DNA of 39,648 bases from a virus, in IMG/VR virus record IMGVR_UViG_3300037502_002001, positions 1 through 39,648 of that record; one strand, 5' to 3'. Position numbers and translations under genes: made by a program. This document shows positions 1,020 to 34,631 of this stretch, piece after piece. The notes under the pieces are model-generated. The model made no database searches, had not been told where the DNA came from, and was given only the letters and a program-made list of their open reading frames with translations. Positions within the stretch are counted from its first letter, which is position 1, and each line of letters opens with the position of its first letter.

Positions 1020-1062
1020 CGAAATATTTAACAAATAAAAAATAGGTTCTGAGGCCCCAGCC

Positions 1063-1926
1063 TTAATACAACCTATGCAGATTAAACAGCTCCGAATAGA
1101 TAGAATTTCCAACATCTGCCTCTCCCCACTGAACAACAACATCTAACGTATTAGAAATAGTTGTATCAAACGTACTATTATTTAGTGTTCTAAATCCTAT
1201 ACTTTCTGGTGTATTGCTTGCATCCTTGTTATAAAAGAATCTACCCGAAGTCAAAATAGAAGCAATGCCAGCAGAACCTATCGTTCTGATTACAAAGTTA
1301 ATCTGAAGTTCCCAGTCTTTATTGGTTGTAGCAGGCAGCGTGATAAATCCAGTATCGACCAAAGTTGACGTAGCAGTAGACACCGTTATCTTTATTGTTT
1401 TGTTATTTACACTAGATATTATCCCTGAAAAATATGCAACAAAAGCATCTCCAACAGAAAATCCGTTCGCTGGAACAGTCAACGTTCCGACACCGCCATT
1501 TATCAGTGTGGTAGGAGCCACCGTGTTTGTTATGGGTGTTCCTGGTCCAGTTTGAGAATATAAACCCGTTGGTGCAAGGGCTTTGTTTTCCCACTCGGAA
1601 GTAACTGAATTGTAAGTTAAAACCTCTCCGTTAGCAGGGCTTGTTATTGTTACATCAGATAAATCGTCTAACTCTAGTGTTTGGTTTTCCCATTGAGACG
1701 TTCCTGAATTATAAACTAGCACTTCTCCTCCTGTGGGTGAAGTTACAGTTACGTCATTCAAGTCATCAAGCTCTGAGGCCCCAGGAACAAAATCATCTAA
1801 ATCTACTTTTACTCGTCTAAGTCTAACGGCTTCGTCCCTAAACTGTTGATTACCTGTAGCTGCGTATTTTAAATCCATTAACGCAGCTTGTTGCAGTAAC
1901 TGTTGTTTAGTTAAGTCAAAAGCCAT
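1063..1926 (-). CDS. Tail fibre-like protein with two LDDLxDV...WEN repeats
   Basis: The 287-aa protein has a short charged helical N-terminus (1-45) and two near-identical repeats at about 52-81 and 85-113. Each runs ELDDL(N/S)DVT(V/I)TSP..GEVL.YNS.TS.WEN. This repeat type is common in fibre and spike proteins of phages, often in front of a receptor-binding domain. The remainder (about 120-287) is beta-rich, with Thr/Ser/Asn and no enzyme motif. The start codon overlaps the stop of the upstream 195-aa gene by one base (TAATG), which indicates translational coupling. A fibre or fibre-tip role is inferred. Confidence 0.7.
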   Translation of the reverse strand: MAFDLTKQQLLQQAALMDLKYAATGNQQFRDEAVRLRRVKVDLDDFVPGASELDDLNDVTVTSPTGGEVLVYNSGTSQWENQTLELDDLSDVTITSPANGEVLTYNSVTSEWENKALAPTGLYSQTGPGTPITNTVAPTTLINGGVGTLTVPANGFSVGDAFVAYFSGIISSVNNKTIKITVSTATSTLVDTGFITLPATTNKDWELQINFVIRTIGSAGIASILTSGRFFYNKDASNTPESIGFRTLNNSTFDTTISNTLDVVVQWGEADVGNSIYSELFNLHRLY

Positions 1927-2513
1927 TAAATAATATCTTTAGATTCTATAAGAGTGTAGGTGAATGAGTTACCGTGAATCTTAGCAGCCTTCTTACAGAT
2001 TTTCATGAACTCGTCAAAGTCCTTTACACGTTTGAATACTTGGCATCCGTGCGACCAATGGTCAATCCACGTAGAGTCTTTTCCTGCTTTGTGTATATTT
2101 ATTCCGTAGTTACTACCTGTCGTAATTTTATCTGTGTCGTATTCTAAATCCTTGTCCGCGTCTCTATAAACAGAAATATCTCCTTTTTGTCCTAACGCTT
2201 CGTATTTACCTTGATGAAGTCTAATCATGTGAGAACCAGGATATTGGCCAGGTACTACACGAGCAGTTCCCGTTCCGTTGTTTCCTAACAACATAGGAGC
2301 TTTTCCTGGGTCAGTTGTAGCATTCCAAATGAAGAATTTCCAAATTCCATTTTCTTTGTATGATAGTGTAAGCCAATCATCAAAAACGTTGGTTACTTTG
2401 TTTCCTGGAGCAGAGTTGCGAATACCGATTACGTTTACGTTAAACTCTCCGTTTTCAAAATATTTATATCCTTTGGCTTTTACAGCCTTTTCAACTTGTT
2501 CTCTTGTAAACAT
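1926..2513 (-). CDS. Probable L,D-transpeptidase-fold cell-wall-active protein (endolysin candidate)
   Basis: A 195-aa protein with no signal peptide. Residues 137-160 read GINIHKAGKDSTWIDHWSHG followed by CQVF. His141 with the Ser154-His-Gly-Cys157 motif resembles the catalytic H...SxGC arrangement of YkuD-type L,D-transpeptidases. An upstream segment VPGQYPGSHMIRLHQGKYEAL matches a family I recall from Bacteroidetes phages. A role in cutting or modifying peptidoglycan, either lysis or virion entry, would fit its place among tail and fibre genes. Both boundaries overlap neighbouring genes by one base (TAATG at each end). The fold assignment is tentative, as only the H and SxGC motifs support it. 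Confidence 0.55.
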   Translation of the reverse strand: MFTREQVEKAVKAKGYKYFENGEFNVNVIGIRNSAPGNKVTNVFDDWLTLSYKENGIWKFFIWNATTDPGKAPMLLGNNGTGTARVVPGQYPGSHMIRLHQGKYEALGQKGDISVYRDADKDLEYDTDKITTGSNYGINIHKAGKDSTWIDHWSHGCQVFKRVKDFDEFMKICKKAAKIHGNSFTYTLIESKDII

Positions 2514-3313
2514 TACGCTAAGTCTCCTGTCATTATAAAGGTGTTAGTTGCAATACAATAAAGGTCAATTACTCTTCCTCTTTGTGCAGTTGGAGCAAAT
2601 GAACTTCCGCCAGGCACACTTCCCATAAAATAATAAATGGTTGTGCTTGGTCCTGTTACAATATTTACTTGTTGGTTGCTGTTGGTAAAAATCTTAAAAT
2701 ACGCCTGTGGTGTAATTACAGGCGAATCCGACAAAGTAAACGTAACAATACCAGAAGAATGGTTAGTGACAAACCAACCATCAGTCATTGCGTTAGTTAA
2801 GTTTGTGTTTCCTGAGCTCGAAATGGTTGTGATTGTTTTACCTTTGAACATTACGTTGTTACTTAGGCGAGCATCATCTACAGTACCAGTTGTTAATTCA
2901 CTTGCGTTCAATGAGGTAAGATTAGAGCCGTTTAGCGGAGGTAAATGTCCACTTGCGTTTAGTTGAACCAGTTGATTTAGTCCATTAAAGGTATTTCCCA
3001 GTAATGTTACTAATGAGTTGAGTAAGGTATTTGGTACTTTTCCGTTAATGTCTAATTTCAGTAATTTGTTAGCTGCATTAAATGAGTTTCCTTCAACTGT
3101 TACATTTGAACTAAGTCTTGCGTCATTCAGTGTACCAGAGGTCATAGAACTTGCGTCTGTTGTTCCGAAGATTGCTTTTAGGTCTGAGACCTCAGCCTTT
3201 TTTGTTACACCAGCAGCCGTATCTGAGACATCAACTATCGGTACAATATCAGTATCTGCAATAGTACTTATTTGACTAAGTTCGTTTATTCTTTTATCTA
3301 AAAATGTAGGCAT
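2513..3313 (-). CDS. Tail fibre-like protein with GTxxDARLSxNV repeats
   Basis: The 266-aa protein contains internally repeated segments. SGTLNDARLSSNV (about 59-71) recurs as TGTVDDARLSNNV (about 142-154), and NSFNAANKLLKLDINGKVP (76-94) recurs as a diverged NTFNGLNQLVQLNASGHLP (about 107-125). This repeat style is typical of long, thin phage fibre shafts. The N-terminus (FLDKRINELSQISTIADTDIVPIVD) resembles virion-attachment segments seen in such fibres. The C-terminal 100 residues are beta-rich and may be the tip. It lies first in a run of coupled genes with the cell-wall protein and the LDDL fibre. Confidence 0.68.
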   Translation of the reverse strand: MPTFLDKRINELSQISTIADTDIVPIVDVSDTAAGVTKKAEVSDLKAIFGTTDASSMTSGTLNDARLSSNVTVEGNSFNAANKLLKLDINGKVPNTLLNSLVTLLGNTFNGLNQLVQLNASGHLPPLNGSNLTSLNASELTTGTVDDARLSNNVMFKGKTITTISSSGNTNLTNAMTDGWFVTNHSSGIVTFTLSDSPVITPQAYFKIFTNSNQQVNIVTGPSTTIYYFMGSVPGGSSFAPTAQRGRVIDLYCIATNTFIMTGDLA

Positions 3314-3323
3314 CTTGTTTAAA

Positions 3324-3713
3324 TTATAATATGATTAAATATCCATTCTGTTGTAGCAACCACGCTCCGTTTTGAATCAGAATTGCTCCGTTTAATCCAG
3401 CCTTAGCAGAAAGTTCTTTTCCCAAGTCTGTTATCTTAAATGCGTCAATTTCTGCTTGAGAAACACTACAATCTCCGCAGTTTTTACTCCAACGATTAGC
3501 CACAGAAATTACTTTGTCTGTTTCGGTGTCGTCGTAGCAGTCGATGTTCTCTAAACACCAAAGCAAAAACAAACCTTTCTTTTGCTCAGATTCCTGAGTA
3601 CAGCAAGGAATATCATAATCTTTAGCGTTCTGAATTGTTTCTTCATTTGCTACAATTGCTTTTCTTACAGCAAGATACGTTCCTAAATAGCTATATATAG
3701 TAGCAAAGACCAT
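3324..3713 (-). CDS. Small cysteine-containing protein, unknown (129 aa)
   Basis: A 129-aa protein with seven cysteines, including a CC pair (about 37-38) and a CGDC near residue 80. The C-terminus is hydrophobic and beta-like (GAILIQNGAWLLQQNGYLIIL). No signal peptide or catalytic motif is seen. It is 1 nt from the stop of the 185-aa gene and 10 nt from the following fibre gene, so it belongs to the fibre transcript. The CxxC-like arrangement could bind a metal, but nothing proves this. Function unknown; a virion or tail accessory is likely from context. Confidence 0.6.
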   Translation of the reverse strand: MVFATIYSYLGTYLAVRKAIVANEETIQNAKDYDIPCCTQESEQKKGLFLLWCLENIDCYDDTETDKVISVANRWSKNCGDCSVSQAEIDAFKITDLGKELSAKAGLNGAILIQNGAWLLQQNGYLIIL

Positions 3714-3714
3714 A

Positions 3715-4272
3715 TTAACAATTACAGTTTGGAGAATAAGGAGAACAACCAGTCATTAGATTTTCGATGTCCTCATAAAGCTCTTGTGCAAAAACATATT
3801 CTTCACAGTCAAAAGCTTGTACCATTCTGTCATACATTGACTTTATTTCGTAGAACTTATTTGTATCTAAGTTTCCTAAAGCTAGTTTACCTATGTTACA
3901 AACTAACTCGTTTACTCTCAAAGAATATCTAACATCCAAGTAAGAGTTGACACCTACAACAAAAGTAGCTTCGTATTTCCAAACTCCGTCTTTTAGTGTA
4001 ACAGAAGAAGTTATATCATAAGCTCTGTCAGTAGTTGTGAAGAAACTAGTAGTCAATAAGTTAAAGTCATTCACATCGACAGTGCTGCTTCCAGGATAAT
4101 AAATGTCTAACTGAATCGCAGAAACAGGAGAAGGTGTAGTGTGAGCTGGATTGTTCACACCCGTTGCATCCCAACCACCAGGATTGGTAACTCCATTGTA
4201 ATCTCCTGTTGCGTCAACGATTACGATTGAACTTTTATTATTTATGATTGATATTTTTGGTTCGAGTGCCAT
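3715..4272 (-). CDS. Conserved-looking virion-associated protein, unknown (185 aa)
   Basis: A 185-aa protein with a beta-rich first half (AIQLDIYYPGSSTVDVNDFNLL, then SVTLKDGVWKYEATFVVG) resembling a small beta-sandwich. The helical second half contains NELVCNIGKL and ends in a Cys-rich tail (TGCSPYSPNCNC). It is the first gene after the giant polyvalent gene and has a TATATTTG box about 14 nt upstream of its ATG, so it probably begins the fibre transcript. No enzymatic motif. I infer a tail or fibre-attachment structural role from position. Confidence 0.6.
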   Translation of the reverse strand: MALEPKISIINNKSSIVIVDATGDYNGVTNPGGWDATGVNNPAHTTPSPVSAIQLDIYYPGSSTVDVNDFNLLTTSFFTTTDRAYDITSSVTLKDGVWKYEATFVVGVNSYLDVRYSLRVNELVCNIGKLALGNLDTNKFYEIKSMYDRMVQAFDCEEYVFAQELYEDIENLMTGCSPYSPNCNC

Positions 4273-4285
4273 AATAGTTCTTATA

Positions 4286-15694: not shown

Positions 15695-18600
15695 CTGTGG
15701 TTTGGTCTATATTTTATGATGTAGTTTAGTAGTTTCTGAGCGCCGCCCGCCAAGAAAGTAAACTTAATCTTTAAATATCTACCCCACAATCTACTAGAAT
15801 CTCCACTATTTACACCACTTAGCGTAGAATCATTTTTGATTGGTGCATAGTAGTAATCTTCTAATTCTTCAAACTCACCTTGTGTCAAGAATGAAACGTG
15901 GTCTCGTGTAGAAAAATCTAAACGATACGGAGTTGTTCCAGTAACAACCTGAACTGCTTCAAAATTTTTGCTCAAGTTTAAGTCATAATTCATAACACTT
16001 GTGATGTTTCCATTAAATCCTGTTCCATAATAATTCATTTCGTCTCCTTTGTCGTGCACCCAAATTTGATTTTCTGCATCTGGTTTAGTAGAATAAAATG
16101 TATTTAAGAAAGGCATGTAAATGTTCGGATAATAAGAATGGAAAGAAATAAATCCATTTTTTAGTTCATCAAACACAAGTGTAAATAAAGTAAAATATTG
16201 AGGATGAGTAGTTACACTCAACTGGTTCCAATAAGTAGTCCAAGCTGCTCCTACGCCAGGTTCAAACTCGTCGCTACTTACTGTAAAGTTAGATTTAGCA
16301 CTATACACATACGAAAGTCCATTTGGTTGTTTTGGAGCAATTGCTTTTGTATTTTTAACCAACTGACCAGTAGTGTAAGTTCCTCCATCAGGATACTCAA
16401 CTATAGAAGTGTTAATTGCCTTGAAGGTATAAATAATTTCGTTATATTTGTCGTTCCACACCCCGTGAACTCCTTCGCCCGAAATATGCTGAAACTTGTC
16501 TCTTAGCCAATTTGCTTTGGTTTGTAAGAAAGACGCTAGTCCTCTGTCGGAAATTACAGATATTCCATCTCCTCCTAATCTAACCATTTTTCTTAATTGG
16601 TCGTTATACCAATAAAGATTATCTTTTCCATTAGCAGTTCTTCCTTTTACAACTGACCATTTTTTATCGCAACCAATTGACGTAAGTTCTACGCCAGGTG
16701 CGCCTAATATTGAGCCTGAGCCAATAACAATATCTGTTCCGTTATTTGCGTTAATTACAGCCGCATCACTAAAGTACTGTCTTTGTACAGAACGTTGCTG
16801 AAGAGTATATAAATTTCCGTTGACAATTTCGTGAGTCGATATTTCTCCTAGCGTCAAATCTAAATCTGCATAATCAATAGGTTTGAATATTCTGTAATTA
16901 TCTTGTGTAGAGTTAATTACTTTTTTCTGAGACCACCAAATTGTAGCAGGACGCTCTCCCGTGTAGTCACTAGTTTCATCAAACCCTGTATCGGTAATGG
17001 TTCCGTCTTTTGCGTTATATCCAGTGTCGTAGTTTCGTTGTCCATGAACCTCTGGCCATTCCTCAAGGGTATTAAACAACCCAGAACCTATTGAACCTGG
17101 CGACGCTTCTAGCGCATTTGTTAAAGATACAAAATTATTATAATAATATGCCTTGTATGTATATGTCTTATTGACGTATGTTGGAAAAATATGTCCAGTC
17201 CCTGTTGGAGATTCATCGTGAGGAACAATATTCATCATTTGAATATTTCCTACGTTTTGTGAATAGAAAGAAACAATATGACCAAACCCTCTTAGTGGAG
17301 AATCATTAGAAGTTCTTCTTAAAACAAAATGAGTTTTTTGAACATATACATCTCCTCCAAACACAGATTGAACCAATACTCCATTTTGTCCTTCAGCTAA
17401 GTTGTAAACATGTCCAGTAGAATGATAAATTGTTTCGTATTTATTTTTAGGATATTTTAAATTAGCTCCTCTGTTTCTAAAAATTTGACCATAATATCCA
17501 CTGCCTCTTGTAGAAAGACCAGTTGGAATTTTTCCAACAGTAGTAAGCGCCTGAGTTAATTGAAATACATAACATGGAACTCCGTGAGATGTAAAATTAG
17601 ACGGACTTGTTACTACAATACCATTTCTTACCTCACTACCTGGTATAAAAGAAGTGTCTATTCCTCCATACTCAAATCGCTTTCCTTGTGTTGTATTAAA
17701 ACTAACATAAGCCTGATTTGAAGAAGTGTAGTATCCGCTAGTGTCTTCGTAGTTAGAACAAGCCGAAGGAGCTTGCACACCACCTGATGTAAAATACTCA
17801 GAAAATCCTTGAAAAAAATTATTTACATTTACTCTATTTAAAGCCAAAAGAGTATCTCCAGTTACGTATGAATAGTCAGTTACTCCGAAAAAATGGTCTG
17901 GAGAATAAAAATATGCAACGGTAGATTCATCTGCATCTGAAACTTGACCATAACTTAACCCAAGTGCAGTTTTGCTAGTACTTGCGGCAAAGTTGTTAGG
18001 AAAGTTTGCATAAGAAGGAACAGTCGATGCGTTTATTGATTGACTAAAAGGAACTATTGGACCTGGGGTTCCAGCGGTTGAGCTTACTCCAGGAACTATT
18101 AAACCTGTTGCCAAAACTTCGGGTATTCTTTCTGCCCTTACTATTCTTATGCTTGAGATTAATTCAAATAAAAGCTTTCCTGTATTTGGAACACTATAGT
18201 TAAGATTTATATTTCCGAACTTAGGATAATAAACATAAGTTTCGGTATTATCAGAATTTGTAAAATTACTTGTTATGTTATTTGCGGTTCTTCTGTTTGG
18301 ACTAGTTACATTAGTTGAGGTTGTGTCAAATCTAATATCGTCTACCCAATAAGGCTGGCTCCATTTACCTGTATTTTTCCACTGAACTTGAATACCAAAA
18401 CGATATGTATCGTTCATCATATAACCTGTATAGTTATACGTATTCATTGGATTTAAATATTCTCCGTAGTTTGTATCTGGATAAGAATCAGTTGCTACTT
18501 CAGAAGAAGCGGTAGTTTTAAATGTTTTTCCTACAGAAGTAATTGCTTTGTACTCAAGAGTGTGTGTTATAGCTGAGGCCCACGCACTTAAATCATAATC

Positions 18601-20003: not shown

Positions 20004-20498
20004 TTAAATAAAGGCTTGTTTTTGTAATTGGAATTCACGTTTGAAATCTTGTACAATGTACGCAGGGTATCTATCGAAGTGTCTTCTTGTGTATTTCCAA
20101 CAAACATAAGCTACAAGCATACGCTCCCATTCGTCTTTTAGAAGAATTTCTCCATCTGAGTCCACGGGAAGTCCTTTATATGTAATACAATATCTTGTTC
20201 CGTCTGGAATTTCTATAAATGATTCAAATATGATATAAGAATCTTGAATACAGAAATGAATATCTTCACAGTATTCTACTCCGCTACTTTCGTGCAAGCA
20301 AACAAACTTTACCATATTTTCTGGTAATTTGAGTCTGTGGTCCTCAGATTCTTCTTCAACCACAAAGGTCATCAAAGCTTCTGCACTTTTAAATGTTCTA
20401 ATAGCCTGATATATAAGTACTTTAAACCACAGAGCGTTTTCTCCATACGAAATTTGAAGTTCCTCTGAGGCCGCAGCTATAGCATCTTGAATTCTCAT
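20004..20498 (-). CDS. Connector/ring-like tail protein, 164 aa
   Basis: A 164-aa protein starting MRIQDAIAAASEELQI with a helical N-terminus. A central beta segment (RLKLPENMVKFVCLHESSGVEYCEDIHFCI) is followed by ITYKGLPVDSDGEILLKDEWERMLVAYVCWKYTRRHF. A helix-beta-helix layout with 'W..ml..Y..wk' near the end is common in head-to-tail connector or ring proteins of short-tailed phages. It lies directly upstream (2 nt) of the muzzle-like gene and downstream (2 nt) of the 215-aa gene. Assignment depends on context. Confidence 0.5.
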   Translation of the reverse strand: MRIQDAIAAASEELQISYGENALWFKVLIYQAIRTFKSAEALMTFVVEEESEDHRLKLPENMVKFVCLHESSGVEYCEDIHFCIQDSYIIFESFIEIPDGTRYCITYKGLPVDSDGEILLKDEWERMLVAYVCWKYTRRHFDRYPAYIVQDFKREFQLQKQAFI

Positions 20499-21938: not shown

Positions 21939-22595
21939 TTAACGAATCAAACTATTCACAAACTCTTCGTATTTTTTTAAAGTCGATTTAAGTACTTGAT
22001 ATTTTTCTTCTTGTGTCAAGTAACCTTGTTCTATTTTATCTAAAGTCGTTCTATAAATAGAGTAAATCACTTGTCTGTCTGCGTTACTTAACTTTAACTG
22101 TTTTGCTGACAACTGAAGCATGTCTTCGGTTGTATTTTCTCCCCAAATAGAATTAAGACTTTTTCCTAAATTCCAAACATGATGAGGTGTATATAGATTA
22201 CACCTGGGGCACGCTGGTAAAAGATTTTTCAAATGATACCTTGTTGATTGTTTTGTTCTTCCAACAAAGTGAGCGCAGTGTAAACCACGAGGGTCGGAAA
22301 GTACACCACAAGCGTGACATTCTGGTTTATGTGCACCTCTTATTAACCAAGAAGTTATTTGGTCTAACTTACTTTGAGTTATGGTGTCTTGTTTTACTTT
22401 TTTCTTGTGTTCTTTTTTGAGCTTTTGCTTTTCTTTCTTTTCGGTAGAAACACAAGTAGCACAAAGCTTTTTAGTTTTATTTGCTATTGCCTTTACTTTT
22501 GCACAACCGATACAGGTCTGCTTCAAAGGTTTTTGTTCTTTGGTTGTTCTGAGACCTTTAACAGGAATCTTTTTTTCTTTGGTTTGTCTAATCAT
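21939..22595 (-). CDS. ninG: NinG/Rap-like recombination nuclease with zinc-binding cysteines
   Basis: The 218-aa protein has an N-terminal four-cysteine group, CIGC (28-31) and CATC (45-48), followed by a lysine-rich linker. A core follows in order: CHACG, GLHCAHFVGRTKQSTRYHLKNLLPACPRCN, then LGKSLNSIWGENTTEDML. The order C..C...HC.HF..R....R....N..P.C..CN is the signature of the NinG/Rap family, which acts on branched recombination intermediates in lambda-like phages. In this window it stands between a terminator and the ring-protein genes, so a recombination enzyme is embedded in the virion operon. It may resolve branched DNA before packaging, which is inference. Confidence 0.75.
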   Translation of the reverse strand: MIRQTKEKKIPVKGLRTTKEQKPLKQTCIGCAKVKAIANKTKKLCATCVSTEKKEKQKLKKEHKKKVKQDTITQSKLDQITSWLIRGAHKPECHACGVLSDPRGLHCAHFVGRTKQSTRYHLKNLLPACPRCNLYTPHHVWNLGKSLNSIWGENTTEDMLQLSAKQLKLSNADRQVIYSIYRTTLDKIEQGYLTQEEKYQVLKSTLKKYEEFVNSLIR

Positions 22596-24414: not shown

Positions 24415-25758
24415 TTAAACAGTTAATTCGATGAGACCCATACGGTCAGCAGCGCAATACAAACCACAGTCAGACAACACGTGGAAATCTACACCGTCTA
24501 CGTCATTGGTTCCTAAAGATACCAACTGAGAACCAGCAACGGTAGCTTTAATTGTTGAAGGGTCGGAGTTTTCCAAACCAATCATACCAGGTACGTAGTT
24601 AGCAATCATTTCGTCGTTGTTGAAGTGATACTTCTGAAGAGGGCTCAAAGAACCGCTACCATCAGCAGCTGGAAGTGGAGTCAAATCCATAAAGTAAATA
24701 GAGTGAGAACTCTTAGGTTTACCAGTGATAAGACTTCTGTCAGCCAAGAAACCAGCGTCGTCAAGAATAGCCCAACGAACGAAGTCAATAGTCATACCAG
24801 CGTAGCTATAGGTCATTACGTTCAAACCTTCTACAGATACACCACCGAAAGTATTGGTATTACCAGCATACTTGATGTAGTCACCTAAGATAGTTTGTAA
24901 ACGAGCCATAGCGGCAGTACCCATCATAGCAACCAAACGACGACCGTTGTCAGCAGTTTTGCGTACTAATGTTTCTAAGAAATCATTGAATACAGTCTGA
25001 GTCAATTCGGTAGTCAAAGGTAAATAAGTACCTCCGTTGTTGATGATAGACCAACGTAAACCAGCAGTAGAATAAGTTTCTCCTTGTGGTCCGTAGAAAG
25101 TAGCACGCTCAGAGAAAGCATACTTATATTCTAAGCTCTTAGCAAAACGACGAAGAGTAATGTCGTCCCAAGAACGATACCAGAAATCACCTTGCCACTT
25201 TACGAAAGAAGCAGTACGGTCACGACGAGCTTGAGTAGAACTCTCACGAGTAACCGCAGTGTAAGTAAAGTCGGTGCTAGGAACAGCATTCAACGCTTGC
25301 TTACCATAACTCAAACGGTTAGCAGAAGCATCGAAGAATACTTTAGCAGTGTGACCAGCTAAGAAGTGCAAAGAACTATTCAAAGTAGTAGTCACGCTCT
25401 TAACTCGGATTTGGTTAGGAGTAGTTGTTTTTTCAATTACAATACCCTGAACCATGTTAGAGTCAGCGATGATGTCACCAGGACGGAAGTTCTCAGCACT
25501 AGTTAAAGTCACTAAGATTTCTCCAGTTGAACCACCACTTACAGCAGTAACAGTAGAGAACACAGAAAGATTACCCAGTGCACTGATTTCAATTTTAGGC
25601 TGATTGCTAGAAATTGAAGGACCTAATTTAGAGGTCAACTGAGTCAAGACATTATACCCATAATCTTGAGCATAAACCATTGCCATTTTGTTAGGCAAAG
25701 AAAGACCCTTTAATAACAAACTCTTTGATATATCAAGGGTGGTGTTTGGACTTGCCAT
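24415..25758 (-). CDS. Major capsid protein (HK97-type, crAss-like), 447 aa
   Basis: Starts MASPNTTLDISKSLLLKGLSL. The 447 aa include LGNLSVFSTVTAVSGGSTGEILVTL (beta), RRFAKSLEYKYAFSERATFYG (a long helix like the HK97 spine helix) and RLVAMMGTAAMARLQTILGDYI. It ends LSDCGLYCAADRMGLIELTV. The order, after portal and a Pro/Glu scaffold-like gene and before a decoration-like gene, is the standard head module. Length is near that of crAss-like capsid proteins (roughly 450-500 aa). No protease domain is seen. The call is by position, length and layout; a structure prediction would settle it. Confidence 0.68.
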   Translation of the reverse strand: MASPNTTLDISKSLLLKGLSLPNKMAMVYAQDYGYNVLTQLTSKLGPSISSNQPKIEISALGNLSVFSTVTAVSGGSTGEILVTLTSAENFRPGDIIADSNMVQGIVIEKTTTPNQIRVKSVTTTLNSSLHFLAGHTAKVFFDASANRLSYGKQALNAVPSTDFTYTAVTRESSTQARRDRTASFVKWQGDFWYRSWDDITLRRFAKSLEYKYAFSERATFYGPQGETYSTAGLRWSIINNGGTYLPLTTELTQTVFNDFLETLVRKTADNGRRLVAMMGTAAMARLQTILGDYIKYAGNTNTFGGVSVEGLNVMTYSYAGMTIDFVRWAILDDAGFLADRSLITGKPKSSHSIYFMDLTPLPAADGSGSLSPLQKYHFNNDEMIANYVPGMIGLENSDPSTIKATVAGSQLVSLGTNDVDGVDFHVLSDCGLYCAADRMGLIELTV

Positions 25759-25770: not shown

Positions 25771-26748
25771 TTATTTTTTGTTTTTCAGATAGTTAGCGAA
25801 AGCATCCTCCACTCCGTTTCCACCCATTCCTGGGTTAAGGTTAGTAGGATTTACGCCAGAAGAAGGATTAGTTGTTGCTTTCAACAATTCTTCCCTTCCC
25901 TCATTTTTTGCTTTGGTCACGTTAGCTCTTACGATATCTTTTCCGTAAAGCTTCCACAAAGCAACATCGGTTAAAAAGTCGACATCCATTGAACCGTCGG
26001 GTCTAACCATTGCAATCTCATCAGTGAGGTACTTCTTAACCCTAGCAGACATTTCGTCTGTAATTTTAAGACCATACAACTCCTGGTTTTGCAAAGCTTG
26101 ACTCTTTTGTTCTAATTCTGTCTGAAAACGGTTCAGTACTTTTTGTTGAGCTTCAACTTGACTGTTGTCGAACGAAGAAAGTTGTTTCAACTTCTCCTCA
26201 TTCTGTCTGTTGTAAGCCGCACGGTATTCCTGAATCAATTTTTTCTTCTGAAATAAAGGCATTACTTCTACTTCACTTAATGCTTGGTCGAAATCATCTC
26301 CACTAAATCCTTCGATTTCTTTTAATGCTCTTTCTAAAATTTGTGAATCGCTCAAAGAAGATATGTCTTCTACTTTGTATTGTTCCACAAAATCTTTTAA
26401 TGATTTACCTTGTTTTTTGAACTCTTTTAATAATTTAATATCTGAGTCCTCATCATCAGAGGAATCAGCCGCTACTGAAGTTTTGTTCGGTTCTGGTTCA
26501 GGTGCAGGAGTTGGAGCAGGTTCGTCTTCTTCCCACCATTCTTTTTTAACACCTTCTCCTGGTTGAGGAGCAGGTTCTGGAGTTGGCTCTGGAGCAGGCT
26601 CTGGAGTTGGCTCTGGATTTGGTTCAGGCGCTGGCTCTGGAGCAGGCTCTGGTGAAGGTTCTGGATTTGGAGTAGGAGCAGGTTCAGGAGTTTGTACTCC
26701 GTTTTTCTTATCCTCTTCTTCAATCATTTTCAATATATTATCGTACAT
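25771..26748 (-). CDS. Scaffold-like protein with a Pro/Glu repeat, 325 aa (true start may be 26,727)
   Basis: Residues 21-63 are a low-complexity series of [12 protein letters not shown] units, with a second short [11 protein letters not shown] block near residue 80. The rest is acidic, then helical: [21 protein letters not shown] and a coiled-coil ([21 protein letters not shown]). It ends [18 protein letters not shown] charged, helical protein between portal and major capsid fits a scaffolding protein. A TAATTTTG box sits immediately before the first ATG. If it is a real -7 promoter, the first ATG would lie at or before the RNA start, and Met8 (MIEEEDKK) would be the better start. Confidence 0.55.
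26560..26688 (-). repeat. In-frame Pro-Glu minisatellite in the scaffold-like gene
   Basis: On the plus strand the segment consists of near-copies of GGCTCTGGAGCAG and GGTTCTGGAGTTG in 12-18-base units. They encode [12 protein letters not shown] and PEPS motifs. The repeat can vary in length by slippage without breaking the frame. Confidence 0.85.
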
Positions 26749-26833: not shown

Positions 26834-29011
26834 TTACTGAGGAGCTTGTTGTGCAGCAGCAGCTTGTTCACCCTGAGCAGCAGCTCCTGATGTTTCTAAA
26901 TCTGTTGCTGCTTTTACTCCTGCTCTAAAGTTTTGACCTTCTTCTCTTACTTGTGCTTGCTGAGCTTGAGCTTGTAACATCTGTTCTTGCATTGCTTGTT
27001 GTTGAAGCATCTGAAGCTGTTGTTGTTCGGCCTGTTCTCTTTTCTTTTTGTTCATAGCAAACTCAATCTCGTTCAATAACTCAGTGTATGTTTTAGCTGT
27101 TTCGATTTTGATAAAGTCAGCCATATCAATAAGTTGGTTTTGCATTGCTGCTTGAGCCAAGAAGATAAGTCTTTCTCTTGCGGACTCGTCAATAAAGTCT
27201 TTAACCTTAATATAAATAGCAAAGTCTTCAAACTTGAAGTCTTCTGTTAATTTCAAATATTCAATGCCACGGTCTCCGATAACAGGAATGTCCTCGTCTT
27301 CATTAACCAATAAAGAAATTTTGTACTGATTTAAAGCGTACTGCAAGTCTTTTTCGATAAACCGAATAAACCCTTGATACAAATAAGCTGTACCTAAGTT
27401 AGACTGAGCAATTGTTCCTGCCTGTGTTTTAGCACCTACATACCCAGACTGTTGACCCATTGCCACTTTTGGTACGTTAACAATCTCTTCCATAATTCTT
27501 TCTTCTTCTCTCTTTAAGCCAAGAAGTTGATTTACATTGGGGTCAAGTGTCATATCTACTACTTCTACAATTCTGTTTCCGTCGGCAGTATTAAAATCTT
27601 CACCAGTTGCGTTTCCGTCAGTAATGTGAATACCCATTCTCTCAAAGTCATTCAATACGTCTTGAGCAGTAGCAGTTCCTAGTTTGTGTTTGTTCAAAAC
27701 GAATACTTTACCTTTGGCTCTTGTAACCATTTTGGTAATTTCGTTATTCAAGAAATCAATTCTATCTTGGTGTTTGTGAAGTCTAGCAGCAATAGACCTA
27801 GACTCACCCATCACCATATTTGGAATAAATACAGAAATAGGAAGTTCTACTTCGTTCAAATCGTCAGACTTTCTAACTATATTAGGCTGTTCACCAAAAT
27901 CAACCAAATACTTATTAGCCAAAAGAGTGCCCTTATAAACAGTCTTTGTAAAGTATTGTGAGGTTTGTCTTCCTTTGATTTTTGCATAGTGAGTATTTCC
28001 AAACTTGTCTTGTACTTTTTCGTAACGAAGTTCTTTATAGCCAATCCAATAAGTAGTAACTGCTGCTAACGCGGGTACTCCGTTTGTGTTATAGTACCAC
28101 TTTAGACGATTGGTTGTGATGTTATCTTCACCCAATAATTTATCTATGTTATTGGTATTCAGTGTTTTAATCTCGTTAACCTCTTCATCAGTCAATTGCT
28201 GTAAGAAAATAGGATTAGATAAAATTTCACCTGGAGTCAACCAGTCTATCTTTCCTACGTAACGAGCTCTTGTATTTAAGTCGTCGTCGATTGAATTATC
28301 CCAAATCAAATTATAAGGTAGGATAATATCTTTTACTTGTCTTTTATTTACGACTTTGTTTTCTATTCCAACAACTCCTCCAAGCATAGTATAGAAGAAA
28401 GCCTGTTTATATTTGTCTACAAATCGGTTTCTGTATAAAATGTCATTAGCTAAACGTTGAGCAATTTCTTCTCCGTACTCTTTATAGTCGTACTGCATAT
28501 ACTTCATTGTCTCTTCTGGAGTAGTAAACTCTTTAGAGCCAGTTGGAGAAAAGAATATTCCCATTTTTTCTAACTCAGCAAATAAGCCAGAAAGTTCGAG
28601 TTTAAGTAATGCTAACTCAAGTTTTTTAGTTTTTTTGTTGACAACTGCCTTGTTTGTAGCTCTAACTGAAGGTTCGATGTTTTCAATCATCTTGATTGCA
28701 TTACCTAACATAAAGTCAATCATAGATGTAAGCTTTTGACCATTAATCCAAACCGTCGGCAAATCACAATTTGATTGGTCTTTAGTCGTATAATAATAAT
28801 CTCTGTTTTCTTGCTTACCTAAATAATAGGAGAACATCCTAAGCATTTCGTCAATAGGCTTATCGAAGATTTGCTCGTACTCTCTATAACCTAAGTTGTT
28901 TTGCTGAGTGTTATACTTGGAAGCCACATATCGAACATTGTCCGCATACCAAGTTTGATTTTTTTCGTTTTCTGGTATAAATTGATTTGGTTGTTCTCTT
29001 AAAGATAACAT
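26834..29011 (-). CDS. Portal protein, crAss-like type, 725 aa
   Basis: Starts MLSLREQPNQFIPENEKNQT. An N-terminal region of aromatic-rich helices (MLRMFSYYLGKQENRDYYYT) is followed by WINGQKLTSMIDFMLGNAIKMIENIEPSVRATNK. The latter is characteristic of portal clip/wing segments in crAss-like phages. A central section (GVVGIENKVVNKRQVKDIILPYNLIWDNS) and a KSLY-like beta domain follow. The C-terminus is a Gln/Ala-rich helix (EQAEQQQLQMLQQQAMQEQM). Length about 700 aa and a place ahead of scaffold-like and capsid genes agree. It would form the dodecameric DNA gate of the capsid. Confidence 0.8.
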   Translation of the reverse strand: MLSLREQPNQFIPENEKNQTWYADNVRYVASKYNTQQNNLGYREYEQIFDKPIDEMLRMFSYYLGKQENRDYYYTTKDQSNCDLPTVWINGQKLTSMIDFMLGNAIKMIENIEPSVRATNKAVVNKKTKKLELALLKLELSGLFAELEKMGIFFSPTGSKEFTTPEETMKYMQYDYKEYGEEIAQRLANDILYRNRFVDKYKQAFFYTMLGGVVGIENKVVNKRQVKDIILPYNLIWDNSIDDDLNTRARYVGKIDWLTPGEILSNPIFLQQLTDEEVNEIKTLNTNNIDKLLGEDNITTNRLKWYYNTNGVPALAAVTTYWIGYKELRYEKVQDKFGNTHYAKIKGRQTSQYFTKTVYKGTLLANKYLVDFGEQPNIVRKSDDLNEVELPISVFIPNMVMGESRSIAARLHKHQDRIDFLNNEITKMVTRAKGKVFVLNKHKLGTATAQDVLNDFERMGIHITDGNATGEDFNTADGNRIVEVVDMTLDPNVNQLLGLKREEERIMEEIVNVPKVAMGQQSGYVGAKTQAGTIAQSNLGTAYLYQGFIRFIEKDLQYALNQYKISLLVNEDEDIPVIGDRGIEYLKLTEDFKFEDFAIYIKVKDFIDESARERLIFLAQAAMQNQLIDMADFIKIETAKTYTELLNEIEFAMNKKKREQAEQQQLQMLQQQAMQEQMLQAQAQQAQVREEGQNFRAGVKAATDLETSGAAAQGEQAAAAQQAPQ

Positions 29012-29465: not shown

Positions 29466-29894
29466 TTAAAACATGGGCCTCAGAAGCTTACGACTATCTA
29501 ACATTTCTATATTCTTATCAAGTAAGTCTATAATCTCTACATTAAACGACATAGCAACCAAAAACCCAACAAAGAAGATTCTGTCTGGATATGGCTTACT
29601 TAATCTATATGTAGCTGGAAATTTTCTGTTTTTAATATAATCATATCCTGTTTGGTCTTTGACATGCACAAAGAAATACCCCGTAGTAAGATTGTGTTTT
29701 CTTTTCAGATACTCAATGTTCTTTTCTAAGTTGTGGGCTTTTTGTAAATAGACATGATTCATACAACGAGTAAATGTTTCTCGTCTAGCTTGTGCTATAT
29801 TGATGTCTTCATAGGAGCGTAGATTCCCCCTCTTGAGGATTTCTATGACTTTTTTCTCCAATCGTTCTTGCTCGGTCTTTATAAATGTTGACAT
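29466..29894 (-). CDS. Unknown protein, 142 aa, overlapping the preceding gene
   Basis: A basic, helical 142-aa protein (QERLEKKVIEILKRGNLRSYEDINIAQARRETFTRCMNHVYLQKA), then beta-like segments (YFFVHVKDQTGYDYI; RIFFVGFLVAMSFNVEII) and a short tail KLLRPMF. No known domain. It overlaps the 143-aa gene upstream by 86 nt in a different frame. The overlap is unusually long for two independent genes, but both frames are fully open. The two genes are the first on the left arm and lie next to the divergent promoter region. Function unknown; a small packaging or regulatory factor is possible. Confidence 0.55.
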   Translation of the reverse strand: MSTFIKTEQERLEKKVIEILKRGNLRSYEDINIAQARRETFTRCMNHVYLQKAHNLEKNIEYLKRKHNLTTGYFFVHVKDQTGYDYIKNRKFPATYRLSKPYPDRIFFVGFLVAMSFNVEIIDLLDKNIEMLDSRKLLRPMF

Positions 29895-30274: not shown

Positions 30275-30279
30275 TAATT

Positions 30280-31022: not shown

Positions 31023-31682
31023 ATGGGATTAGGAATTAAAACTAACGCAACTTACTTAAATGTAAGAAATGGAAAATTGTATCGTTATTCAAAAACAAAC
31101 GAAGAAGGAACAACAACAATTTTAACAAAAAAAGGAGAACCTCGTTATTATTTCGTTTATGATTTTATCGAAGGTTACATTACTAAATTGTCAACTCGTA
31201 CAGAAGTTATTGTAGGAGAAGAAAAATTATTCTTATCTGTACAAATGTCTGACGACTCAGATATTTACCATGTGAATATGGATGTAAATTCACGTTACTT
31301 TGACGCATTTTGCTCTATTATACCAAACGTAGATTTATCTAGACCTGTAAAAATAGTACCTACTCAAAAAGAAGTAGAGGGTAAAATGAAATCAGGTTTG
31401 ATGATTATTCAAAACGGTCAAGTAATTAAGTGGTTCTACACTAACGCAAATCCAAACGGAAGACCTGAAATCGAAGTAACTAAAAATAAAAAAGGAGAAG
31501 TTGTTGACTACGACGCAGAAGCACGCAATCAATTCTACTTTGACCTTTTAGGCAAGTTAAACGAAAAGATGTTACCCGCTGGTTTAGTTCCGCCTGTAAA
31601 AGACGTAGGAACTAAGTTTGAAGAAGAAGTTGGTCAAGCTGATTTTTCGGCCTCAGACGACGATGACGATTTACCTTTTTAG
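31023..31682 (+). CDS. Single-stranded DNA-binding protein with acidic DDDDLPF tail
   Basis: The 219-aa protein starts MGLGIKTNATYLNVRNGKLYRYS and has OB-fold-like strands (PRYYFVYDFIEGYITKLSTR; KLFLSVQMSDDSDIYHVN). It ends in an acidic tail finishing DDDDLPF, the tip by which SSB proteins, including Bacteroidetes SSB, contact partner enzymes. Length and tail resemble phage SSB proteins of the T7 gp2.5 type. It would coat single-stranded DNA during replication and recombination. It heads an operon with a small conserved protein and, after the tRNA-like cluster, an exonuclease, a typical recombination pair. Its promoter is the strongest in the window. Confidence 0.8.
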   Translation: MGLGIKTNATYLNVRNGKLYRYSKTNEEGTTTILTKKGEPRYYFVYDFIEGYITKLSTRTEVIVGEEKLFLSVQMSDDSDIYHVNMDVNSRYFDAFCSIIPNVDLSRPVKIVPTQKEVEGKMKSGLMIIQNGQVIKWFYTNANPNGRPEIEVTKNKKGEVVDYDAEARNQFYFDLLGKLNEKMLPAGLVPPVKDVGTKFEEEVGQADFSASDDDDDLPF

Positions 31683-31700
31683 AATTAAAAAATAATAATT

Positions 31701-32042
31701 ATGGGAATATTATCTAAAACAAAAACCGAAGAGTCAGTTTCTAAAACTTTTGGAAACACAGACAGTAACGGAGCTACAAAAAACGTAAAAGACATCGTAT
31801 TTTGGGGAAACGGAGACACATTTAAATTAATCAGCAAAGCTTCTTCTCAAGCAGAAGGCTGGATGAAATCTACCAAAGCTATGGAAATTGAAGGAATTGG
31901 CTGTGTAATTCAAGTAACTACACAACAAGGTTCTAATGTAGCCGAGGCTTTGACTTATGTTCCTGGTGTAAGAATTAGAGAAATCAAAGAAAACGGTGAA
32001 GTTATTGCTCGCGAAATAATCAATCGTTTCATTGAAGACTAA
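31701..32042 (+). CDS. Small protein next to SSB, 113 aa, unknown
   Basis: Starts MGILSKTKTEESVSKTFGNTD. It then has beta strands with the segment DIVFWGNGDTFKLISKASSQAEGWMKSTKAMEIEGIGCVIQVTTQQ and ends REIKENGEVIAREIINRFIED. It seems conserved next to SSB in related phages as far as I recall. It might assist SSB or recombination, but no motif shows this. It is 18 nt after SSB in the same unit; the next gene is more than 300 nt on, beyond the tRNA-like cluster. Confidence 0.6.
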   Translation: MGILSKTKTEESVSKTFGNTDSNGATKNVKDIVFWGNGDTFKLISKASSQAEGWMKSTKAMEIEGIGCVIQVTTQQGSNVAEALTYVPGVRIREIKENGEVIAREIINRFIED

Positions 32043-32158
32043 AACAGCTCCTAGGCCAGGAGAACGAAGACGGTGGTGCTTACCATAAGAACAGCGGACA
32101 CTCCTAATCGTAAGTAGGCACAGTTGGCAACTCTGGGGGTAATCTAAAAGTTGCAAAT
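32043..32158 (+). ncRNA. Non-coding spacer ahead of the tRNA-like genes, with hairpins and a shared motif
   Basis: There is no gene in this 116-nt spacer. It has a CTCCT/AGGAG hairpin (32,048-32,062). Positions 32,076-32,095 carry a sequence 18/20 identical to the central arm of the following tRNA (32,185-32,204). A GCAACT/AGTTGC hairpin follows at about 32,128-32,154. It may be a degenerate tRNA or a structured leader. I could not fold it into a cloverleaf because no T-arm with TTCRA is present. Confidence 0.4.
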
Positions 32159-32244
32159 GAAGGAGTGGCGGAATTGGTAGACGAGTGCTTCCCATTAGAA
32201 CAGCACGCCCATAGCGGTTACAGGTTCGAGTCCTGTCTCCTTCT
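32159..32244 (+). tRNA. tRNA gene, leucine-type (long variable arm); anticodon uncertain
   Basis: Acceptor GAAGGAG (32,159-32,165) pairs fully with CTCCTTC (32,237-32,243), with discriminator T. The T-arm ACAGG-TTCGAGT-CCTGT (32,220-32,236) is perfect. The D-arm region TGGCGGAATTGGTAGACGA is like tRNA-Leu, with a terminal G-A mismatch. A variable arm with GCG pairing (about 32,205-32,219) makes it type II. The central arm is odd. Standard spacing gives a stem TGCTT/GAACA with one mismatch and loop CCCATTA, which has no U at 33 and an apparent CAT. Allowing a 12-nt loop closed by GTGCT/AGCAC would expose TAG (Leu). No CCA is encoded. Confidence 0.72.
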
Positions 32245-32246
32245 CT

Positions 32247-32407
32247 AACCAAGTGTGCAGGTAGCACATACATTAGCTCGCAAAGCTGATATTGTATAAA
32301 GTAAGTAAGCGGCCTTTATACAGGAGTAGCCAAACGCACGTAGTACCTTTGCAAGGGTCGATAGAGAAAACTACAAACGGCTGGGGGTTCAAATCCCTCC
32401 TTGGTTT
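32247..32407 (+). tRNA. tRNA-like gene with an insertion of about 75-85 nt
   Basis: Starting 2 nt after the previous tRNA, AACCAAG (32,247-32,253) pairs perfectly with CTTGGTT (32,400-32,406). The adjoining T-arm GGGGG-TTCAAAT-CCCTC (32,383-32,399) is good with one G-T pair. A TGTGC/GCACA hairpin occupies the D-arm place, but its 5-nt loop is too short. The whole is 161 nt, about twice a normal tRNA. The extra part contains a 9-bp hairpin TGTATAAAG/CTTTATACA (32,293-32,322) and an ACCTTTGCAAGGGT segment whose loop would show TGC (Ala). It could be a tRNA with a small insertion, a degraded gene or a different structured RNA. Confidence 0.45.
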
Positions 32408-32411
32408 CAAA

Positions 32412-32639
32412 ATGTCAAACAAAATAAAAGATAAGGAACTGGCTAACGAGTTAGCTAAGAAGTTTGGTATTGTTGAAGACAAAGAATCTTCAGCAACATT
32501 CAAGCACATGGAGCACCAGTACTCCAAAGACCATCAAATTATTAGACAAGCTTGTTTAAAAGCCGCATCTAATATTGGAAAAACAGCCAAAGAAGTAATT
32601 GAAATTGCAGGAGAGTTTGAAAAATGGGTTTTAAGATAA
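32412..32639 (+). CDS. Small charged protein, 75 aa, unknown
   Basis: The longer open frame would begin inside the tRNA-like gene. I choose the ATG at 32,412 (MSNKIKDKELANELAKKFGIV) because it begins right after the tRNA-like 3' end. The protein is helical and charged (KHMEHQYSKDHQIIRQACLKAASNIGKTAKEVIEIAG). No domain is recognised. It overlaps the exonuclease start by 16 nt, suggesting coupled translation and a possible accessory role in recombination. Confidence 0.6.
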   Translation: MSNKIKDKELANELAKKFGIVEDKESSATFKHMEHQYSKDHQIIRQACLKAASNIGKTAKEVIEIAGEFEKWVLR

Positions 32640-33610
32640 TTAAGATTAACAAAGACAAGGATTACGAAGGCTGGTTAGACTACCGTAATTCTGGTATTGG
32701 GGCCTCAGAAGTAGGAACTATCCTAGGACTAAATCCCTGGAAGTCATCAATAGAACTATTCTATCAAAAGATAGGAGCCATACCACAAAAGCTAACTGAA
32801 AACATGGCAATGTTCATGGGAAACAGATTAGAATCATTCGTAGCTGATATGTGGCAATACTATCAAGGAGACGAAGAATCAGTAATCCACAATTTCAACG
32901 AAGGAGTAAAGATAAGACACTGCCAAGAGGTAACAGGTTATATAGTAAATAGTGACTACCCAAACCTTTTCTTTTCTCCCGACAGAATCATAACCAAAGA
33001 AGGAGCCAAATTAGTTAGACGAGGAAAGCTTTACCTGGAAGAAGCCGAAGGAGTATTGGAGATTAAAACGATTTCAGGTTTTGCATCTAAGCAATGGGAA
33101 GGCGGTATTCCTCCCTCTTACATTGTACAGCTTACTACTTACTTAATGGGGCTTAATCTTCAGTATGGAGAGATTGCTTTCTTGGAAGACGGTCGTAATC
33201 TTAAAGTATTTCCAATCGAAAAGCAAGACTTCTTGGTTGAAAAGATTATATCTGCGACCAACGAGTTCTGGGAGCGTGTTACTATGGCTAGAGCCGACAT
33301 GGAAAATGCTCATCTGTACGCACCTGAGCCCGACGGAACTGAGTCTTATCAGAAGTTCTTAAATCAGAAGTATGCCACTAGTCAAGAAAAAACAGTTCGG
33401 GGGGACTCAGAATCCCTTCTAATGGCAAAAAGACACAAAGAACTAGGAGAACAGATAAAAGACCTAGAAGGAGAACAAAGACTATGTGCCGCTTTTATAA
33501 AGTCAAAACTACAAGAGAGTGAAACACTAGACTTCGGAGAAGCAGGTAAAGTAACCTGGAAGACAGATTCACGTGGAGTAAGAACACTGAAGAACCTAAT
33601 AAAACAATAA
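32624..33610 (+). CDS. YqaJ/lambda-exonuclease-type recombination exonuclease, 328 aa
   Basis: Residues 21-39 read RNSGIGASEVGTILGLNPW, the standard opening of YqaJ-type viral recombinases, and MFMGNRLESFVADMW follows. Active-site residues of the PD-(D/E)XK fold appear in order: Asp120 (SPDRI), Glu146-Ile-Lys148 (GVLEIKT) and Gln169 (VQLTTYL). The last 90 residues are a helical accessory region. The enzyme would resect double-stranded DNA 5' to 3' in phage recombination, together with a single-strand annealing partner or the SSB. It lies three genes after SSB. No annealase of the Beta/RecT type is seen in the window. Confidence 0.85.
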   Translation: MGFKIIKINKDKDYEGWLDYRNSGIGASEVGTILGLNPWKSSIELFYQKIGAIPQKLTENMAMFMGNRLESFVADMWQYYQGDEESVIHNFNEGVKIRHCQEVTGYIVNSDYPNLFFSPDRIITKEGAKLVRRGKLYLEEAEGVLEIKTISGFASKQWEGGIPPSYIVQLTTYLMGLNLQYGEIAFLEDGRNLKVFPIEKQDFLVEKIISATNEFWERVTMARADMENAHLYAPEPDGTESYQKFLNQKYATSQEKTVRGDSESLLMAKRHKELGEQIKDLEGEQRLCAAFIKSKLQESETLDFGEAGKVTWKTDSRGVRTLKNLIKQ

Positions 33611-33642
33611 ACAATCAAACAATCAAACAATAAAACAATAAA
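33601..33642 (+). repeat. Tandem ACAAT repeats before the next gene
   Basis: Five ACAAT units spaced 8-9 nt apart (ACAATAAAC, ACAATCAA, ACAATCAA, ACAATAAA, ACAATAAA) fill the gap between the exonuclease and the 75-aa gene. The first overlaps the exonuclease stop. An A/C-rich unstructured leader like this may aid translation where no Shine-Dalgarno site exists. Confidence 0.7.
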
Positions 33643-33647
33643 ACCAA

Positions 33648-33875
33648 ATGACAAATATAACAAGAAAAGAATTTCTAGTAAGCGACAAAAAGATGAGAAT
33701 TAAGTATGTTGACTTAACTCGTTCGGTAGAATTAGAGACCTTTACTAATGACGACTACTTTGCAACAAGCTATACGTTTTCGACAGCCAATGAAGCAAGA
33801 ATGTTTTTTGACTCCTTCGATGAAGTAAAAGCCAAAACTATGAAGTTGTTGATTGATTTTTCGTTACAAAAGTAA
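33648..33875 (+). CDS. Unknown protein, 75 aa
   Basis: A 75-aa beta-alpha protein: MTNITRKEFLVSDKKMRIKYVDLTRSVELETF, then YFATSYTFSTANEARMFFDSFDEVKAKTMKLL. Alternating strands and a closing helix suggest a compact fold; no family recognised. It is preceded by the ACAAT-repeat leader and followed by a gene 4 nt downstream, so it is part of the same operon. Function unknown. Confidence 0.58.
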   Translation: MTNITRKEFLVSDKKMRIKYVDLTRSVELETFTNDDYFATSYTFSTANEARMFFDSFDEVKAKTMKLLIDFSLQK

Positions 33876-33879
33876 AACT

Positions 33880-34131
33880 ATGACACCACAGGGGAAAGCG
33901 AAAGAGTTAATAGATAAATTTGATGATTTATTAACTTATAAAGAAAGTAAAACAAAAGTCAAACAATGTGCATTGATTGCAGTGGATGAGATAATAAATT
34001 CAGAACCGAGAAAGCCAAGTAATGTTGATTGGGATGAGGTTGGAGCAACTCATCAATATTATTATGAGGCACAAATTGAAGAAGCTAAAAAATTTTGGCA
34101 AGAAGTAAAACAAGAAATAGAAAAATTATGA
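33880..34131 (+). CDS. Small helical protein of a Bacteroidetes phage family, 83 aa
   Basis: The start at 33,880 (MTPQGKAKELIDKFDDLL) is preferred over an upstream in-frame ATG that lies inside the previous gene. The protein is helical: KQCALIAVDEIINS in the middle and AKKFWQEVKQEIEKL at the end. I recall similar short proteins with ALIAVDEI and a terminal WQEVK.EIE helix in Bacteroidetes phages and prophages, always of unknown function. Its stop overlaps the next start (ATGA), so the two genes are coupled. Confidence 0.65.
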   Translation: MTPQGKAKELIDKFDDLLTYKESKTKVKQCALIAVDEIINSEPRKPSNVDWDEVGATHQYYYEAQIEEAKKFWQEVKQEIEKL

Positions 34132-34631
34132 GCAGTAAGTTATTTGATACGGCTATAAACGCTATGATACGAGAGGGATACTTGGTGGATTTTGAGTTTA
34201 TGTTGATTGGGATAAGGTTTAAGGCTGAGGCCTCAGATTCAAAAGACGACATCCTACTACTAGTATCAAACTCCAATATAGAAAGATACCATCTAAACAC
34301 AATACCCTCAAGTAAAGAAATCCTACAACCAGGACAATACACTTACACAAAAGCATCAACCCTATTTGACCCCTATTACGGACAACAAAGAAGCCAAGTA
34401 CTATGGAAGGATGAAGAAGGATGGATAAAGACAGACGAATTTGAACCAAAGCTACAAGGTATAAACATAGTATTACACCCAGTAAGCTTAATATTGCAGT
34501 CTAAGAACGTGATGAGTGGATTTTCTCCAGGTTCGCAGATAGTTTCATCAAAGGCGTACTTATCTTTCAAGGAAAAGGCTAAGGAGATGTTTACATACAC
34601 GTTGTTAGAAGCCGATGATTTGGTTGAGTAA
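34128..34631 (+). CDS. Unknown protein, 167 aa, last of the recombination operon
   Basis: The chosen start is the ATG at 34,128, which overlaps the previous stop. Upstream in-frame ATGs would overlap more of the previous gene. The sequence includes MSSKLFDTAINAMIREGYLVDFEFMLIGIRF and then Pro/Ser/Gln-rich segments with no clear motif, ending SSKAYLSFKEKAKEMFTYTLLEADDLVE. The gene carries a CTGAGGCCTCAG palindrome at 34,225-34,236. A strong terminator follows, so this closes the operon. Function unknown. Confidence 0.55.
   Translation: MSSKLFDTAINAMIREGYLVDFEFMLIGIRFKAEASDSKDDILLLVSNSNIERYHLNTIPSSKEILQPGQYTYTKASTLFDPYYGQQRSQVLWKDEEGWIKTDEFEPKLQGINIVLHPVSLILQSKNVMSGFSPGSQIVSSKAYLSFKEKAKEMFTYTLLEADDLVE

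Follow-up and report, generated by a model that had tools for sequence, protein, structure and literature searches.

Several systems are known in which short asymmetric DNA words are repeated along phage genomes. Chi sites are over-represented in Escherichia coli phages which have no RecBCD inhibitors, and this includes phages equipped with a recombinase of their own (PMC3784561). In phage T7, Okazaki fragments are 1–6 kb long and the priming site is 5'-(G/T)2GTC plus a 3' flank, with an initiating T before a cryptic C (PMC12839067). The motifs TACT/RTGMC and WACTRTGAC mark single-strand nicks in virion DNA: They are family-specific and gene-blind, prefer the coding strand, and differ by drift from one related phage to another (PMC3517423, PMC11780129). 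Cluster A mycobacteriophages contain asymmetric repeated sites, the stoperators, with a co-drifting consensus (PMC6550527). Here we analyze the octamer GGCCTCAG in a phage fragment of 39,648 bases (IMG/VR record IMGVR_UViG_3300037502_002001, of the linear class), which we call the window and which does not include the primase region. This octamer lies at the core of a longer 12–13 bp motif, T(T/G)GGGNCTCAGA, whose centre is degenerate. We show that this motif is a strand-polar address at the DNA level, repeated throughout one phage family and maintained by selection.

Counting both strands, the window contains nine copies of the octamer at eight places, because the 12-bp palindrome at 34225–34236 bears one copy on each strand. 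The eight places given in a preliminary description of this DNA are all exact, the palindrome adding the ninth copy. That description also expected fewer than one copy, and our counts agree: 0.38 copies are expected from dinucleotide shuffles, none of which reached nine in 100 trials, and 0.33 to 0.17 from Markov models of order 1 to 3. Under each of these models GGCCTCAG ranks first among 17,142 8-mers (Poisson P about 1e-10 to 2e-13). A protein-preserving shuffle of synonymous codons gives a mean of 0.076 sense copies, compared with the six observed in the window. The degenerate core, GGNCTCAG, has 18 sites. The near-matches GGTCTCAG had been listed at correct positions, except that the site at 16927 was overlooked and the last one, given as 37047, begins at 37046. 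The strand of the exact copies follows the gene arms, as had been suggested; the exceptions are the copy at 29476, already listed as such, and the palindrome copy on the minus strand. With the degenerate core the rule also fails at 33324, 36390, and 37046, which are on the minus strand within the plus arm. Similarly, the six sense sites of the window are all read in the proposed Ala-Ser-x frame, but every frame is used in the family.

The carriers of the motif are a whole family of uncultured phages with genomes of 64–72 kb. About 55 relatives were gathered among viral contigs by portal and capsid searches. Several of them are fragments, and genes were called by a simple longest open reading frame (ORF) rule. 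Because of the mutual relationship of these genomes, their individual counts lack independence, and counts of non-redundant DNA or of independent sites are safer. In 728 kb of non-redundant relatives, GGCCTCAG shows the highest enrichment of all 8-mers, with GGTCTCAG in second place. In 892 kb of non-redundant, motif-rich family DNA, the 12-mer TTGGGNCTCAGA is found 85 times, while 0.39 are expected, which amounts to a 220-fold enrichment. The core is enriched 8- to 18-fold in motif-rich genomes. Motif density is about 5–8 per 10 kb (approximately one per 1.4 kb), or some 40 sites per genome. A chance or compositional artefact is practically out of the question: It is refuted by the shuffle, Markov, and codon-corrected counts and by those in the family, where the octamer is present in 41 of 42 whole related records and reversed-pattern controls are near zero.

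The full form of the motif was obtained from the counts of all its single substitutions in the 892 kb of motif-rich DNA. It has seven strongly specified bases. Positions 7 and 8 of the 12-mer (numbered from 0), T and C, are nearly invariant, A9 tolerates C and G, and the N position is free; weak flanking preferences extend about 10 bp on either side. The consensus is TTGGGNCTC(A/g/c)GA in clade I, which bears RusA, and (C)TGGGGNNTCAGA, with a relaxed C after the N, in subclades II-b, II-c, and II-d. The window belongs to subclade II-a, with CTGNGG upstream and the C retained. The apparent loss of the motif in motif-poor relatives is in part a drift to TGGGGNNTCAGA.

Selection acts on the DNA itself. 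When amino acid feasibility and the codon usage of each genome are taken into account, sense sites exceed the expectation 16.6-fold and antisense sites 8.9-fold, in every frame; with the same codon-usage correction, six scrambled control words give 0.6 to 1.4. About 19% of the feasible sense positions and 14% of the antisense ones are occupied, compared with approximately 1% expected. Such a high occupancy, about 15–25% of the positions permitted by the code, means strong selection at the DNA level, across an uncultured phage family. The preliminary description had proposed conservation of the sites at synonymous positions in relatives as a check, and such conservation is indeed found. Within identical peptides of proteins with 40–90% identity, motif 8-mers are unchanged in 39–76% of the pairs, and other GC-rich 8-mers in 9–37%. 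There is therefore purifying selection at synonymous sites. Site positions turn over: Only 4.5% are shared at 30–50% protein identity, and 28% at 70–80%. Sites are spread evenly along genes with no preference for gene boundaries, and 5.7% of them are outside ORFs, compared with 5.6% of non-coding DNA in the genome. What selection keeps is density, not place. A transcription- or RNA-level element in nascent mRNA might explain why sense enrichment is about twice the antisense one after coding correction, but antisense sites are still enriched about ninefold and the polarity described below departs from gene direction between 5 and 25 kb, so we consider this explanation highly improbable.

Strand polarity was studied in a common frame, in which the SSB-like gene is placed at 0 and the structural arm has negative coordinates. 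After coding correction, the structural arm of clade I (−27.5 to −10 kb) is enriched about 19-fold on the minus strand and 2.5-fold on the plus strand, while in the first 5 kb on the right-hand side enrichment is about 31-fold on the plus strand and 8-fold on the minus strand. It is high on both strands at the switch of polarity, close to the divergent early/structural junction, and equal on both of them to the right of 5 kb. If homologous sites are counted only once, 395 independent sites remain in clade I. The structural arm has 19 plus and 111 minus sites (P 6e-9 against the coding expectation). Immediately to the right of the junction, up to 5 kb, 30 sites are on the plus strand and 11 on the minus strand (P 9e-4). 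The early region between 5 and 25 kb has 50 plus and 64 minus sites, while its genes are on the plus strand; polarity is therefore not simply the direction of transcription. The sites had been described as oriented with transcription. This is only partly correct: Much of the sense excess arises because reading frames permit more sense than antisense sites, and in the 5–25 kb region the minus strand has as many sites as the plus strand. Polarity could reflect the direction of forks from a putative origin near the junction, or an orientation which is avoided in the most heavily transcribed genes.

Sites on the same strand avoid each other. The fraction of same-strand neighbours closer than 500 bp is 0.204, compared with 0.298 ± 0.020 when sites are jittered locally; opposite-strand neighbours show no deficit (0.325 in both cases). 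Since avoidance is limited to the same strand, both strands are used independently, which points to a one-way reader and not to a binding protein blind to orientation. In the structural arm, same-strand spacing has a median of 1.26 kb, a mean of 1.8 kb, and a maximum of 7 kb. The idea of a polar DNA signal under selection, put forward in the preliminary description, is borne out by the Markov- and codon-corrected enrichment, by synonymous conservation, by the presence of the octamer in nearly all the records, and by a polarity beyond that of coding; the motif may be read in replication, recombination, packaging, or modification.

One candidate role is the site-specific nicking of one strand in virions, which is known from phage tf and related phages. 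The nick motifs of tf/LUZ24-like and phiKMV-like phages are also asymmetric, family-specific, and gene-blind, and they drift both in position and in consensus. However, each of the known motifs is limited to one strand, while here both strands bear sites, three to four times more of them per genome. The lack of mutual avoidance between opposite strands also argues against nicking, as do palindromic double sites such as 34225–34236, where nicks would become double-strand breaks. We regard it as quite unlikely.

The motif is probably a polar address for replication or recombination, judging from its sequence features. Its reader would be a strand-specific DNA machine which deals with each strand separately. 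As to which machine, we tentatively favour lagging-strand priming, although this particular assignment is doubtful. The motif would be the preferred lagging-strand priming site for the T7 gp4-type primase-helicase of the family itself, and the phage would fix the starts of its Okazaki fragments as forks leave a putative origin near the divergent early/structural junction. The layout of polarity (minus on the left, plus on the right, both at the switch) is consistent with such an origin, being that expected of lagging-strand templates which leave it. Priming sites would explain polarity, per-strand spacing, family specificity, drift, and the layout of T-C and G/T-rich bases. As in T7, the motif is polar and has an Okazaki-like spacing, a G/T-rich 5' side, and an invariant T-C, and every near-complete relative has a gene for a gp4-type primase with a zinc domain; in all of the 16 genomes which were aligned, this Cys4 domain is intact. 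The primase-helicase sequence differs between subclades which differ in the motif.

Several points weigh against priming. Unlike T7 sites, the motif is strongly enriched in the genome and has seven strongly specified bases, which priming leaves unexplained, compared with 3–5 in known primase sites. To our knowledge, no such enrichment is found in other phages with homologous polymerases or primases. The co-variation of zinc domain and motif follows phylogeny and is not independent evidence, and the motif is linked to no particular protein by sequence or domain resemblance. Fork direction would be mixed between 5 and 25 kb, where both strands are equally enriched. Finally, the same polarity could arise if the late arm and the 0–5 kb genes are strongly transcribed.

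The motif length and polarity are better accounted for by a Chi-like site, a polar word of the octamer type which would protect phage DNA and start recombination through a host helicase-nuclease of the AddAB/RecBCD type, or through the YqaJ exonuclease of the phage, encoded in 28 of 28 genomes. Chi sites (for example GCTGGTGG of E. coli) are also short, polar, over-represented words, dispersed in coding DNA and abundant in phages, with 5–8 specified bases and sometimes an N. Gene-blind placement, presence on both strands, even spacing on each strand, and polarity from an origin all fit. On the other hand, enrichment is much stronger (8- to 18-fold for the core and 220-fold for the 12-mer, compared with an observed/expected ratio of 2.3 for Chi in E. 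coli), the flanking consensus is longer, and within the material tested a single phage family has the motif. Strength and family confinement fit worse than with priming sites. Thus, a Chi-like role is possible but doubtful; the choice between both readings is close, as Chi is almost as likely as priming. Either way, it is conceivable that this family has hard-wired its lagging-strand starts, or its own equivalent of Chi, by means of a motif within coding sequences which co-evolves with a phage-encoded reader. Replication or recombination would then have an addressable map, written into synonymous sites. Finding the reader would provide either a primase with an unusually long specificity or a self-marking signal of the Chi type in Bacteroidota and their phages. 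In both cases we would have a handle on replication, recombination, and survival to nucleases, which could help to link uncultured phages to their hosts.

The host is very probably a member of Bacteroidota, since the TAnnTTTG promoter element of this phylum is enriched 6.6-fold upstream of family genes (143 matches in 300 upstream regions) and Shine-Dalgarno sequences are rare in family genomes. This enrichment is confined to the exact spacing, neighbouring spacings being the negative controls; in the window it corresponds to the 9-mer TATATTTGT. The closest named portal is that of a remote crAss-like phage, the only portal match among INPHARED phages, where capsid and terminase had no match. 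Twelve Bacteroidota plasmids and two crAss-like phages show no clear enrichment, which may also speak against Chi; a single Hymenobacter plasmid has 22 sites, compared with 8 for controls. The ratio is 14.4 in the family but 1.2 in 140 loci of other phages which have the methyltransferase or ThyX genes in common with it; by our own arithmetic, the latter value drops to about 0.7 without six short contigs which resemble fragments of the family. Some of these phages share ThyX at up to about 90% identity and do not have the motif. Its absence from phages which share this cargo favours a reader encoded by the family and makes a host-wide Chi less likely, with the reservation that those phages may have different hosts.

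Two apparent exceptions were discarded. The only GTDB match is the Sphingomonadaceae metagenome-assembled genome WB4_6_108 (G042), but its contigs with 62–68% GC do not have the signal and it was rejected as host. Its contigs L170 and L171, and other small ones with 36–39% GC, belong to this phage family and carry the signal; their presence is most likely a binning error. The sites in L346 (G056), a viral contig of 72 kb which we had considered as an outsider bearing the motif, are part of 12-bp tandem repeats, GGGCTCAGGTAT and variants, found at both ends and unrelated to the dispersed motif.

Candidate readers which are universal or nearly so in the family include the YqaJ exonuclease, the SSB-like protein, the 29466–29894 protein, an 88-aa protein, a serine recombinase, the primase-helicase, and small proteins with hardly more than a DnaA domain IV (PF08299). 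The latter (for example, G025 55478–55813) have diverged into short and long forms, and 20 of 28 records contain them. Together with the universal small protein beside the divergent promoter, they might suggest repressor operators or stoperators, or sites for another regulatory DNA-binding protein. The stoperators of Cluster A (PMC6550527) are also asymmetric motifs of the 13-bp class, with 20–40 repeats which drift between related phages. Nevertheless, the divergent early promoter region, beside the 29466–29894 gene, is free of sites in all 28 genomes, and gene boundaries are not preferred, so stoperators are disfavoured. Neither the number of sites, about 40 per genome, nor their fast positional turnover is expected from operators, and consistent co-orientation with transcription is missing between 5 and 25 kb. 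The recognition helix of the DnaA-like proteins varies widely among genomes which share one motif, so these proteins cannot explain a constant motif and were rejected as readers. The 29466–29894 protein has a confident all-helical model (pLDDT 90) with no PDB match at E <= 1e-3, and was rejected as a classical repressor, as the promoter region has no motif. A ParB/parS system with a phage-encoded ParB was also discarded, as PF02195 is absent in 19 records. Taken together, a regulatory role appears rather unlikely.

The sites and main genes of the window are shown in Table 1. Across the family, homologues of the probable major capsid gene are almost devoid of motif sites.

Table 1. Motif sites and selected genes in the window
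Feature	Coordinates	Strand	Remarks
Motif site ctggGGCCTCAGa	1049..1056	-	Directly downstream of gene 1063-1926
Motif site ctggGGCCTCAGa	1773..1780	-	Within gene 1063-1926
Motif site ctgaGGTCTCAGa	3184..3191	-	
Motif site tggtGGTCTCAGa	16927..16934	-	
Motif site cgtgGGCCTCAGc	18573..18580	-	
Motif site ccgtGGACTCAGa	20156..20163	-	
Motif site ctgcGGCCTCAGa	20465..20472	-	Position shared with G002 and G033
Motif site taaaGGTCTCAGa	22549..22556	-	
Motif site atgaGGACTCAGa	26442..26449	-	
Weaker variant ccacGGTCTCCG	27271..27278	+	Variant class enriched in the family
Motif site catgGGCCTCAGa	29476..29483	+	Antisense within gene 29466-29894
Motif site tttcGGCCTCAGa	31649..31656	+	
Motif site ttggGGCCTCAGa	32701..32708	+	YqaJ exonuclease gene, GASE codons; alignment column has a site in 6 genomes
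Motif site cgtcGGGCTCAGg	33324..33331	-	
Motif site ggggGGACTCAGa	33403..33410	+	
Palindromic double site CTGAGGCCTCAG	34225..34236	One copy per strand	Also in G002 and L012
Motif site ccgaGGTCTCAGa	36390..36397	-	
Motif site ctgcGGTCTCAGa	37046..37053	-	
Probable major capsid protein	24415..25758	-	Name inferred from size and position
Portal protein	26834..29011	-	Strand marks the structural arm
Small helical protein, family-universal, at the divergent junction	29466..29894	-	Considered as reader
SSB-like protein with C-terminal DDDDLPF tail	31023..31682	+	28/28 genomes; name inferred from the tail
YqaJ/RecE-like exonuclease	32624..33610	+	28/28 genomes; Pfam match on the G025 homologue

Other repeated sequences are present in these phages. 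In clade II-d (G024, G007, G009, and G030), palindromic words of the CAACCNNNGGTTG type are strongly enriched, with 96 copies of AACC-N3-GGTT versus 9.5; they may represent hairpins of terminators or else another dispersed signal. In G025, a stretch of a ribonucleotide reductase gene (protein TEREALLGIGMTGVASGAVL) is repeated at both ends (1–1224 and 68739–69485), which suggests a probably complete genome of 69.5 kb, either terminally redundant or circularly permuted. The only Rfam match in the window is a tRNA-Trp (CCA) gene at 32159–32245, on the plus strand. We should also note that the right-hand cassette of the window contains six exact copies of GGAGGTAACA on the plus strand (37507, 37787, 38789, 38986, 39268, and 39402). 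This repeated Shine-Dalgarno-like leader is an odd feature, as most other genes of these phages have no Shine-Dalgarno sequence; the copies at 37507, 37787, and 38986 end directly before an ATG.

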